This document shows positions 48,582 through 52,047 of a stretch of 64,000 bases of DNA, piece by piece. The stretch is taken from the NCBI RefSeq assembly GCF_910589745.1, contig NZ_OU342399.1:248001-312000 (forward strand). Reading direction: 5' to 3'. Numbering within the stretch: the first letter of the stretch is position 1; each line of letters begins with the position of its first letter. The notes beneath the pieces are model-generated. The model did no database searches, had not been told where the DNA came from, and saw only the letters and a program-made list of their open reading frames with translations. Source of the DNA: Candidatus Arcticimaribacter forsetii. Its GTDB lineage: Bacteria; Bacteroidota; Bacteroidia; Flavobacteriales; Flavobacteriaceae. A program made the translations under genes and the position numbers.

Positions 48582-50123
48582 CTAATGAAAAAAAGCATGA
48601 GTAATGAGTAAGCTAAGTAAAAGCATGAAGCCCCAAAATTTATGTTTTACAGAAGCCGCTTCAAATAATAAAATAATTGAATTTAATTTCTTCCTATTCC
48701 CTAAAAGAGCTATTAAAAGTCCAGTGAAAATAACCCAAAAAGCACGCACAAAGTAATTCATTTCTGGAAAATAAAAGAGCATAAAAACATTTACAGGAAC
48801 GGTAATTAAGAAAGCCGTTAACATAACTTTTTGGTTAGGTTTAATGATTAAAATCGCTCCACAAATTAGAACTACAATTCCGCAGTTTATAAAATATCTT
48901 AGATTATTTAGGGTATGAGTAAATGCAGATTCCGGATTTTCGAATTTAAGATACAATAAAATAAGTCCCATTAATAAAGCAGTTCCTAAACTAAATATAA
49001 TTGCTTTTTGTCCTGCATTAATTTTATCGGAGTCGTTTGCTTTAGGATTTATATAAGTTGCATAAATATCGACCGACCAAAGCGTTGCAAGTGAATTAAA
49101 TGTAGAGTCTACCGTACTCATAAGAGAAGCAAATAAACCACATAATATGACCCCCTTAACTCCTACCGGTAAATACGTTTTAACCAAATAAGGAAACGCT
49201 AAATCAGGTTCTCCGAGGCTGTCACCTAAGATTCCATAAAGAGCAATGCCAGGAACCACAATTATTACTGCCATTAAATATTTAATTAACCCTCCAACCA
49301 TTAAACCAGTCTGTGCATGAGCAATATTTTTAGCTGCAAGCGCTCGTTGCATTACCGTTTGATTTGCACACCAGTAATTAATGTTTAAAAAAAACAAACC
49401 AAAGAGATGTGTCCAGGGTAATGTTTCATGGGATGAGGGTAAATGTAGATGCATTTTGTCGGGGGTTTTAATATAAAGCTGTTCCCATCCCCCTAAATGA
49501 TAAATTGCAGTTAAACAAACGACAATCCCTCCAATTAATAAGACGCCAAATTGCACAACATCTGTTTTCACAACCGCAGATAATCCTCCAAAATAGGTGT
49601 ATATCGCAGAGAATATTCCTAATATTAAAATCAATATTGCAATTCTTACTATCCTATCCGGATGAATAAAAGCAAGTTGCTCTCCAAAAACCATATCTGC
49701 AGCATATGCGCCCCAGAATAGAGCTGCTCCAAGCGTAACTGTTGCAAATAAGCCAATGTTTGCGAGCGAGTAAAAAAGAGCTACACGCGCACCTATTTTT
49801 AATTTAATATATTGAGTAATTGTTGTTATTTTTTCTTTTAAAAAAACGGGAACAAAAACAAAGGTTCCAATTAAAATTCCCTGGATAGCGTTAATTTCTA
49901 AATTAGCTTGTGCTAAACCATATAAATATGCAGACCCCATCATTCCTAAGAATTGATACCCTTGAATGTTGGTCGCAATAGTTGAAACTGCAATTGAGTA
50001 CCAAGGAAGATTTCTTGAACTCAAGAAGTAATCATCGGAAGTTGTTTTACTATTAATTTTCCCTTTTAAGGCAATAAAAAGAATCAAGCAGAAATATCCA
50101 ATAACAATAACAAAGTCTAACAT
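48582..50123 (-). CDS. Sodium:solute symporter (SSS family)
   Basis: A 513-residue inner-membrane symporter with about 13-14 helices, including TTSDDYFLSSRNLPWYSIAVS near 25-45 and LFASLMSTVDSTFNSLATLWSVD near 329-351, which holds sodium-site serines. It resembles the SGLT-type branch and differs from the acetate-type gene at 44867. It follows the LLM monooxygenase gene by four bases, so the two are very likely cotranscribed and the transporter may bring in the oxidoreductase substrate or a related solute. Confidence 0.88.
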   Translation of the reverse strand: MLDFVIVIGYFCLILFIALKGKINSKTTSDDYFLSSRNLPWYSIAVSTIATNIQGYQFLGMMGSAYLYGLAQANLEINAIQGILIGTFVFVPVFLKEKITTITQYIKLKIGARVALFYSLANIGLFATVTLGAALFWGAYAADMVFGEQLAFIHPDRIVRIAILILILGIFSAIYTYFGGLSAVVKTDVVQFGVLLIGGIVVCLTAIYHLGGWEQLYIKTPDKMHLHLPSSHETLPWTHLFGLFFLNINYWCANQTVMQRALAAKNIAHAQTGLMVGGLIKYLMAVIIVVPGIALYGILGDSLGEPDLAFPYLVKTYLPVGVKGVILCGLFASLMSTVDSTFNSLATLWSVDIYATYINPKANDSDKINAGQKAIIFSLGTALLMGLILLYLKFENPESAFTHTLNNLRYFINCGIVVLICGAILIIKPNQKVMLTAFLITVPVNVFMLFYFPEMNYFVRAFWVIFTGLLIALLGNRKKLNSIILLFEAASVKHKFWGFMLLLSLLITHAFFH

Positions 50124-50127
50124 TGCT

Positions 50128-51288
50128 TTATTTTCTTGGTCCTCTTTCGAGAGGTGTATTTGGTTTCTCCTTTGGAATTCTTCCCATTACTTCAGGAAGA
50201 GAAACTGTTTTTAATCTAGGTAAAACAAGTTTAGCAAAATATTCGGCCTCTTGTTTATGAGGGTATCCTGAAAAAATAAAAGATTGAATTCCCATTTTGA
50301 TGTAGTCTTGAATTTTATTATGAACTTGATCTGGATTACCCACTATAGCTGCTCCACATCCCGATCGTGCCAATCCAATTCCAGTCCATAAATGTGGTTC
50401 TACAAAATAGTCTTCATCTGCAGATTTTCTTAATTCAGATTGTCTCGAAACACCCAATGAATTAGCATCTTGAGCACGATTTCTTATTTCATCCCCTTGA
50501 TCTAGATCTAAATTAGAAATCAGAAATTTAGCATATTCTTTTGCTTCTTGTTCTGTTTCTCGAACAATTACGTGCACCCGTAAACCAAACAAAACTTTTC
50601 TCCCAAAACCAGCAGCTTTTTCAGTCATGTTATTCATTAGACCTTTTAATTTATCTATTGTTTCGGGCCACATTAAATAAACATCGCAATGTTCTGCACA
50701 AAGGGAAACCCCGTCTGGAGAATAACCGCCAAAATATAATAAAGGCCCCCCATTTTGTTGGTATGGTTTTACAGGGTCCGTACGCAATTTAATATTGTAA
50801 AATGTACCTTTAAAATCTATTTCATCTTGAGTCCATCCTTGTTTTAAAATTTCAATTACTTCCCTAGAACGTGCATATCTTTCTTTTGAAGAAAGAACGC
50901 TTCCGGGTAAGTCAGAGGAGATAATGTTTAAGGTTAAGCGTCCCTTTAAAATATGGTCAAGTGTTGCTATTGCTCTCCCTAACATGGGAGGATGAACTTC
51001 TCCGCAACGGATTGCGGTTAAAAGATTTATTTGTTTTGTAAGTGGCCCTATAGCTGAAGCAAAAGTTAGGGTATCTTGTCCAACTTGATAAGAAGATGGG
51101 CATAAAACATTTCGAAATCCAAAAGAGTCAGCACTTTTTACTATTTCAGAAGTGTTTTCCCAGCTACTTTTAAACATTGAATTTCGATTTCCCATAAAAT
51201 CATCATCGCCGTCACACAAAGGGGCAAACCATGAAATTTCTGCACCCTCAAAAACAGGTAAATCCAAAATATTTTTTTCTATACTCAT
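50128..51288 (-). CDS. LLM-class flavin-dependent monooxygenase (SsuD-like)
   Basis: A 386-residue flavin monooxygenase of the bacterial luciferase-like fold. Visible are ISWFAPLCDGDDDF at the start, FRNVLCPSSYQVGQDTLTF near 58-76, LTLNIISSDLPGS near 117-129, and SGYPHKQEAEYF near 354-365. It resembles alkanesulfonate and related monooxygenases that use reduced FMN from a separate reductase. No reductase gene lies close by. It heads a two-gene unit with the SSS transporter. Confidence 0.85.
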   Translation of the reverse strand: MSIEKNILDLPVFEGAEISWFAPLCDGDDDFMGNRNSMFKSSWENTSEIVKSADSFGFRNVLCPSSYQVGQDTLTFASAIGPLTKQINLLTAIRCGEVHPPMLGRAIATLDHILKGRLTLNIISSDLPGSVLSSKERYARSREVIEILKQGWTQDEIDFKGTFYNIKLRTDPVKPYQQNGGPLLYFGGYSPDGVSLCAEHCDVYLMWPETIDKLKGLMNNMTEKAAGFGRKVLFGLRVHVIVRETEQEAKEYAKFLISNLDLDQGDEIRNRAQDANSLGVSRQSELRKSADEDYFVEPHLWTGIGLARSGCGAAIVGNPDQVHNKIQDYIKMGIQSFIFSGYPHKQEAEYFAKLVLPRLKTVSLPEVMGRIPKEKPNTPLERGPRK

Positions 51289-51366: not shown

Positions 51367-51564
51367 TTATTTCTTTTCGAAAAGAAAAATCTTTTCAATA
51401 GGGAGTTTAAATAAATCAGAAATCAAAAAAGAAGTCGGTAAGCTGGGATCAAACTTTTCTTTTTCAATTGCGTTAATTGTTTGCCGAGATACCCCAATAA
51501 TTTTAGCCAATTCTTCTTGAGTCATTTTTCTTTCAGATCTCAATTCTTTTAATCTATTTTTCAT
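51367..51564 (-). CDS. Small HTH (XRE/Cro-type) transcriptional regulator
   Basis: A 65-residue regulator that is almost only a helix-turn-helix: MTQEELAKIIGVSRQTINAIE (14-34) is the core, with a C-terminal FLISDLFKLPIEKIF dimer part. Its start overlaps the stop of the upstream membrane-protein gene by four bases (ATGA-type overlap), so both come from one mRNA. Two TGTAAA-N6-TTTACA sites in that mRNA's promoter are probable autorepression operators. Confidence 0.9.
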   Translation of the reverse strand: MKNRLKELRSERKMTQEELAKIIGVSRQTINAIEKEKFDPSLPTSFLISDLFKLPIEKIFLFEKK

Positions 51565-51938
51565 TGGTATTTTCTGTTATTAAAGAAAATAGCTCCTAAA
51601 TAAGTAATTCCCATAAACCCGACTAAAAAGCCAATTTCTGCATCTATTGGAATTAGATTTTTTTGATCCAATAAAGAAAATGAGAGGCCAAAAATTACCG
51701 ATAATCCCAGACTAAGCGCTAGAGATTCTAATTGAATCTTTTTTTGTAATTCATCTAAAGATTGAATATAGTTTTTAGTAATAAGAACCCATTTTACTCC
51801 TAAAACTAGGTTTAACGTAATCCCAATTACAGTTAAAATAGATTTATTGTTCCAAAGATATTCCGGTCCAAAAGTAGCAATAGCCATTGATAAAACCCAT
51901 ATAAAGTTCCAAAGGGCAAGTTTTTTTGTTTGTGTCAT
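51561..51938 (-). CDS. Small membrane protein paired with the HTH regulator
   Basis: A 125-residue protein with four predicted membrane segments (FIWVLSMAIATFG, ILTVIGITLNLVLGVKWVL, LALSLGLSVIFGLSFSLL, IGFLVGFMGITYLGAIFF). The ATG at 51938 (MTQTKK) is chosen. A longer frame to 51974 would cross the promoter and operator. Membrane/HTH pairs of this size are common and the membrane partner is of unknown role. It could sense a stress or a small molecule. Confidence 0.75.
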   Translation of the reverse strand: MTQTKKLALWNFIWVLSMAIATFGPEYLWNNKSILTVIGITLNLVLGVKWVLITKNYIQSLDELQKKIQLESLALSLGLSVIFGLSFSLLDQKNLIPIDAEIGFLVGFMGITYLGAIFFNNRKYQ

Positions 51939-51944
51939 AATATT

Positions 51945-51968
51945 TTTTGTAAAGTTTACTTTACAAAA
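51945..51968. promoter_or_regulatory. Operator 1 over the -7 element of the HTH/membrane pair
   Basis: A perfect inverted repeat of 11-bp arms (TTTTGTAAAGT and ACTTTACAAAA) around two bases, containing TGTAAA-N6-TTTACA. It overlaps a minus-strand TACTTTTG -7 element at 51964-51971 and ends six bases before the ATG at 51938. Confidence 0.8.
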
Positions 51969-51971
51969 GTA
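51964..51971 (-). promoter_or_regulatory. Candidate -7 promoter element for the HTH/membrane pair
   Basis: Minus-strand TACTTTTG, 25 bases before the ATG at 51938, partly inside operator 1. Confidence 0.55.
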
Positions 51972-51983
51972 CATTAATTTTTG

Positions 51984-52001
51984 TGTAAATAAGACTTTAC
52001 A
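51984..52001. promoter_or_regulatory. Operator 2 near the -33 region of the HTH/membrane pair
   Basis: TGTAAA-TAAGAC-TTTACA, the same half-sites and same six-base spacing as operator 1, whose core begins 36 bases away. Its place matches where the -33 contact would be. Confidence 0.75.
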
Positions 52002-52021: not shown

Positions 52022-52047
52022 AAACCCTTCTTTTTACAGAAGGGTTT
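52022..52047 (-). terminator. Hairpin terminator, minus strand
   Basis: A perfect 10-bp stem (AAACCCTTCT with AGAAGGGTTT, six-base loop) with a T-run on the minus-strand side. No minus-strand gene lies to its right, only about 330 bases of unassigned sequence, so the transcript it ends is unknown. Confidence 0.7.

Follow-up and report, generated by a model that had tools for sequence, protein, structure and literature searches.

The window analysed here, a 64,000-nucleotide stretch of the Candidatus Arcticimaribacter forsetii genome with a G+C content of 34%, contains a compact two-gene unit on its minus strand. The leading gene (51561–51938) encodes P0002, a 125-residue membrane protein, and the second (51367–51564) encodes P0001, a 65-residue HTH regulator. 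A first-pass annotation, made from the letters alone, had proposed these two products, and its description stands. Both frames are correct, the AlphaFold model of P0002 has four helices (mean pLDDT 90.9), and the HTH gene overlaps the stop of the membrane gene by the four bases ATGA at 51561–51564. The pairing into one unit also holds, with the HTH gene adjoining the membrane gene in all 53 related loci. A terminator-like hairpin at 52022–52047, called twice (once per strand) against a mean of 0.3 in shuffled sequence, parts the unit from the upstream sequence. Downstream, on the same strand, lie genes for a luciferase-like monooxygenase (50128–51288; Pfam, 6.4e-51) and a sodium:solute symporter (48582–50123; Pfam, 1.7e-40).

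The promoter region carries two exact copies of the palindrome TGTAAA-N6-TTTACA, as previously annotated. Operator 1, the promoter-proximal site, occupies 51948–51965 and operator 2, the distal one, 51984–52001. The two 18-bp sites start 36 bp apart, and both are aligned in 48 distinct related promoters. A -7 element, TACTTTTG (51964–51971, minus strand), fits TAHHTTTG, the F. johnsoniae consensus for primary (sigma-A type) flavobacterial promoters, which a section of PMC6847099 places at -12 to -5 with its G at -5. By this numbering, transcription would start near 51959 on the minus strand, five bases past the G, leaving a leader of 21 bases. An alternative in-frame ATG at 51974, which would extend P0002 to 137 residues, lies upstream of this predicted start and is thus unlikely to be used. 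Operator 1 spans about -6 to +12 and overlaps both the -7 element and the predicted start site; the final two bases of the box are the first two of the site, in agreement with the overlap claimed earlier. Operator 2 spans about -25 to -42. The claim that it lies at the -33 contact is right and can be refined: the minus strand at 51993–51991 reads CTT, not TTG. Hence, the -33 element is degenerate in the window genome, whose promoter has the TAHHTTTG box and lacks the TTG or TTTG of a primary flavobacterial promoter at -33. The spacer to the -7 box is 15 bases, versus 18–20 in relatives. Given this spacing and a degenerate -33 element, the promoter could be a weak one, or the two sites could work in another way. 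On the predicted geometry, both operators cover polymerase contacts.

Within its own genome (one contig of 2,034,069 bases, ~2.03 Mb), the exact palindrome occurs at these two positions and nowhere else. A dinucleotide Markov model trained on the window gives an expectation of 0.90 exact sites per 2.03 Mb, and none of 73 simulated genomes contained a pair within 60 bp. A lone site is therefore at chance level, whereas the pair is not. The genome search for a wider regulon that the first-pass annotation had suggested returned no second site pair in this genome. The best profile match after the known pair reached E = 0.049, and a relaxed one-mismatch scan for single sites gave 58 matches versus 41 in the control, again with no second target pair. 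A lone TGTCAATTTCTTTTGACA palindrome at G000:C1:140621–140638 is the sole other exact match to the relaxed consensus. The genome also holds a second membrane-HTH unit at 1765233–1765858 (locus L125, 2734–3359), in which a DUF6249 membrane gene precedes a small HTH gene. It resembles the module in gene order and in a related palindrome (TGTTAAGTTTGCGTTACA) located 15 bp before its first gene. However, this site is single and degenerate, the HTH protein is 35% identical to P0001, and the membrane protein belongs to another family.

Relatives of P0002 were found in 29 of 299 family genomes (the G099 copy is broken), at 24 loci from 85 candidate stretches in a second collection, and in 12 of 296 genomes of a wider phylum set. 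The first two sources together supply the 53 related loci. A script recovered the operator pair with a TAnnTTTG promoter at 50 of these (48 distinct, two duplicates), missing L030 and L049, two copies of a single locus, together with the alphaproteobacterial L055. On inspection, L049 retains both sites, with a -7 box that departs from the consensus. Locus L055 (2418–3467, on a Kordiimonadales contig) carries two small membrane frames and a related HTH gene in a row, with no operator pair. Across the 48 distinct promoters, operator starts are 34–43 bp apart (40–42 in 38), and the -7 element begins 6 or 8 bases ahead of operator 1. In 43 promoters, 18–20 bases separate the -7 box from the right half of operator 2. 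The invariant alignment columns lie within the half-sites and the -7 box, and just two of the upstream sites score as low as 9/12. Moreover, 23 of the 48 relatives have TTG in the right half-site of operator 2 (TTGACA or TTGTCA), which places the -33 element within the operator. A third, weaker site lies ~21 bp downstream in 21. In the phylum set, eight of 12 loci (L113–L120) have at least two upstream sites scoring at least 10/12 and resembling the operator pair; L114 and L115 among them repeat loci counted before. No clear pair is found at L121–L124, although L123 and L124 have a single good site apiece. Two loci of this set have unusual layouts. L113 (G404) carries three operators in 20-bp steps over one promoter, about 426–466 bp upstream of the HTH gene, and at L122 (G331) partial HTH-gene starts lie upstream of the intact copy, flanking a membrane-protein gene, as if duplicated. 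No conserved neighbours surround the module across most loci.

The distribution of the operator indicates which of the two genes it accompanies. The exact paired-site pattern occurs in 18 of 299 family genomes (16 times at this operon), and a reversed control pattern in 1 of 299; these 16 are drawn from the 29 genomes that carry the membrane gene. The two remaining genomes have the pair elsewhere. In G187, three sites lie directly ahead of a lone HTH gene with no membrane gene, and in G151 the pair belongs to a three-gene unit with two membrane genes, both different from P0002, and an HTH gene. A profile built from operator DNA alone matches 88 of 299 genomes at E <= 0.01. All 29 that carry the membrane gene are among these, although 28 of the 29 served as training loci and match by construction. 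We inspected 34 secondary profile matches, leaving out one below E 0.004 (G055). A small HTH gene lies downstream in 19 of the 34, CylR2-like in 17 cases, and in all of the best nine by E-value; the 15 matches that lack one are mostly weak. The profile thus also picks up promoters of paralogous small HTH genes that have other small membrane proteins encoded ahead of them. At L049, a close relative of the window locus (HTH proteins 80% identical), the membrane gene no longer encodes helices 1 and 2 and is interrupted by stops, yet the HTH frame and the operators remain. The cases of G187, G151 and the others, together with L049, argue that it is the HTH gene, not the membrane gene, that the operators track. 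The L049 break further implies that the HTH-operator unit is separable from the membrane protein, whose presence is not always needed; the break is in keeping with a lost sensor, with a lost toxin, or with a unit kept for the sake of downstream genes. As judged from sequence, the travel of the paired operator with this HTH family across Bacteroidota is strong indirect evidence for its putative binding by the HTH protein.

P0001 itself is an HTH_3 protein (Pfam, 1.6e-15), with no LytTR domain among the 25 of 31 Pfam matches listed. Below 1e-4, the PDB offers only 9k3w, a solved 65-residue regulator labelled as PbsX family, and CylR2 entries. The best match is 9k3w (E 9.6e-16, residues 2–61), and CylR2 is the closest among named solved structures, aligned over residues 3–63 (E 2e-12) with almost the same recognition helix (VSRQTIN-IEK). 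Matches of P0001 in PADLOC (best HTH_VI, 8e-13) amount to generic HTH similarity, and a defence function was discarded.

Hydropathy and charge place both termini of P0002 inside, together with the loop of residues 54–72 between helices 2 and 3. The best conserved stretch of the protein lies in this loop, at codons 62–68 (DELQKKI; 51735–51755, minus strand). D62, E63, L64, Q65, K67 and I68 are invariant in alignment A3 (24 sequences), and D62, L64 and I68 in alignment A2 (23 sequences). P0002 has no family match in PADLOC, PHROG, NCBIfam or, among the matches listed, curated Pfam; a Pfam match to Jagunal (E 0.013) fell below the cut-off and was taken as chance. A PDB structure search with the model gave 24 matches, none at E <= 0.001.

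A comparable loop is present in other membrane partners. When aligned, six further partners of differing sequence all show the same EDE, with L, R, S and A behind it at constant distances, and the second protein of L084 carries DERDDMIN. Three proteins, representing two families, were examined for the position of the motif, and in each it occupies the helix 2–3 loop, where P0002 also has it. An hhalign comparison of the P0002 family with the other partner family gave a weak match (probability 11.8%, E 0.0025) that aligned exactly the loop region; with a match of this weakness, a common docking loop is treated as a hypothesis. The DE-x4-[I/L] cytoplasmic loop is a candidate contact with the HTH protein. 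In the DUF6249 partner of the window genome, no such motif was visible by eye. A match to MotA_ExbB is limited to the first membrane protein of the three-gene unit at L084.

Taken together, we consider it likely that the pair works as a self-controlled membrane-to-DNA switch of two genes, similar to CylR1/CylR2 and operating without a phosphorelay. A dimer of the HTH protein would bind each of the two palindromic operators, operator 2 over the -33 contact and operator 1 over the -7 element and start site. With these positions covered, RNA polymerase would be shut out and the pair made at a low level only. The membrane gene would be translated just upstream of the HTH gene, coupled to it through the ATGA overlap. 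The four-helix protein is the probable signal input and would most likely sense a membrane or envelope condition. Its cytoplasmic DELQ(K/R)KI loop would then alter the hold of the HTH protein on DNA and so derepress the operon. We infer that the HTH protein binds and represses here and that it contacts the membrane protein directly, as well as which way the signal runs; autorepression by the HTH protein is read from operator position. The first-pass annotation had predicted autorepression by a dimer bound twice, an interpretation that conservation supports well. This reading builds on observed sites, geometry, conservation and linkage to the HTH family. Counting against it are the degenerate -33 element with its short spacer, the persistence of the HTH gene and operators at L049 without an intact partner, the failure of the scans to find a second target and the weak loop profile match. 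A broader proposal, with somewhat less than an even chance of holding, is that the module represents a Bacteroidota-wide class of phosphorelay-free switches, in which a fixed CylR2-like repressor and a tandem operator over the promoter would be combined with exchangeable four-helix inputs, docked to the repressor by the shared DE-x4-[I/L] loop.

Other arrangements could produce a similar locus. A toxin-antitoxin-like pair, with the membrane protein as growth inhibitor and the HTH protein as autorepressing antitoxin, would account for the gene overlap, the autorepressor layout, the patchy spread (29 of 299 family genomes) and the mostly unconserved neighbours. L049, with its HTH gene kept and its membrane gene broken, is also what would be expected if a toxin were lost first. 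Nonetheless, P0002 has none of the database families sought above, its conservation peaks in a cytoplasmic loop rather than in a helix or tail, and CylR2, the nearest studied relative of P0001, acts in signalling; we regard this explanation as improbable. The opposite sign of control is conceivable as well, with the HTH protein as an activator that the membrane protein restrains until a signal arrives, resulting in positive feedback. LytTR regulatory systems, as outlined in part of PMC6193735, consist of autoregulated two-gene operons in which the partner of a DNA-binding protein is a transmembrane inhibitor. Their sites, according to the same part of that source, are direct repeats upstream of -35, whereas those found here are palindromes on the core promoter, one of them over the -7 box and start, which is the position of a repressor. 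P0001 moreover has an HTH_3 domain instead of LytTR, and activation is likewise improbable.

A further possibility concerns the output, and is compatible with the switch. In the clade of the window, promoter and repressor might mainly control the monooxygenase and symporter genes by read-through. The window, L032 and L049 all preserve the order module, monooxygenase, symporter, and none of the three has a TAHHTTTG match between the HTH and monooxygenase genes. In the window, no terminator-like hairpin was found in the same interval. Read-through would also explain why L049 kept promoter and HTH gene after loss of the membrane gene. The missing -7 match is weak evidence, however, since such a match is also absent at most loci without the module. 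Furthermore, of 298 family genomes, 17 contain the monooxygenase, and at only two of these 17 loci, both from the genus of the window, does the HTH gene adjoin it. This role is therefore an unlikely, if still appreciable, addition to the preferred switch.

Regarding known systems, no description of the module was found in the literature searched, a search that left most subscription journals outside its range, and the only family name that such small membrane-protein/HTH pairs drew in this analysis was generic HTH. The main text of a 2025 survey of XRE palindromes (PMC12565409), as far as available, contains no GTAAA or TTTAC string, and in the available portion of a Caulobacter XRE paper (PMC10688885) membrane partners go unmentioned. 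For 9k3w, the closest solved sequence to P0001, the literature search found no paper. LytTR systems such as HdrRM and BrsRM are similar in combining DNA-binding and transmembrane proteins in a self-controlled two-gene unit, but differ, as far as the accessible account goes, in their LytTR domain, direct repeats upstream of -35, activation and a regulator gene that comes first. The closest parallel is CylR1/CylR2 of Enterococcus faecalis. As summarised in a section of PMC3709268, CylR2 is a repressor that binds the cytolysin promoter, its membrane partner CylR1, with three predicted helices, is required for induction, and no phosphorelay has been proposed. A passage of PMC11343131 reports related R1/R2 pairs next to bibacillin genes and states that the quorum-sensing system has so far been described for cytolysin only.

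The signalling step from CylR1 to CylR2 has long been open, to judge from the same section of PMC3709268, and dozens of intact homologues make the question testable. The tandem operator that holds the -33 and -7 contacts, together with one conserved cytoplasmic loop, supplies concrete residues and DNA positions for such work, and the operator profile offers a way to find switches of this kind from DNA alone. With the Cyl pair, the present unit shares a small membrane protein encoded together with a stand-alone CylR2-like HTH protein (about 65 residues here, a repressor of about 66 there), a nearly identical recognition helix and the absence of a proposed phosphorelay. It differs in having four helices rather than the three predicted for CylR1, and in its two operators. 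The Cyl pair acts, by way of overlapping promoters, on a divergent toxin operon, whereas here the own operon is the only paired target found. No neighbouring peptide-toxin operon was seen under its control; neighbouring frames vary among loci, and those of the window are metabolic genes. Because the sequence comparison concerns CylR2 and no toxin operon is linked, we claim that the unit works like CylR1/CylR2, by virtue of its HTH protein and the presence of a partner, and not full membership. Its elements are familiar, and what is added is how widely they occur, the tandem arrangement of the operator and the loop that partners share.
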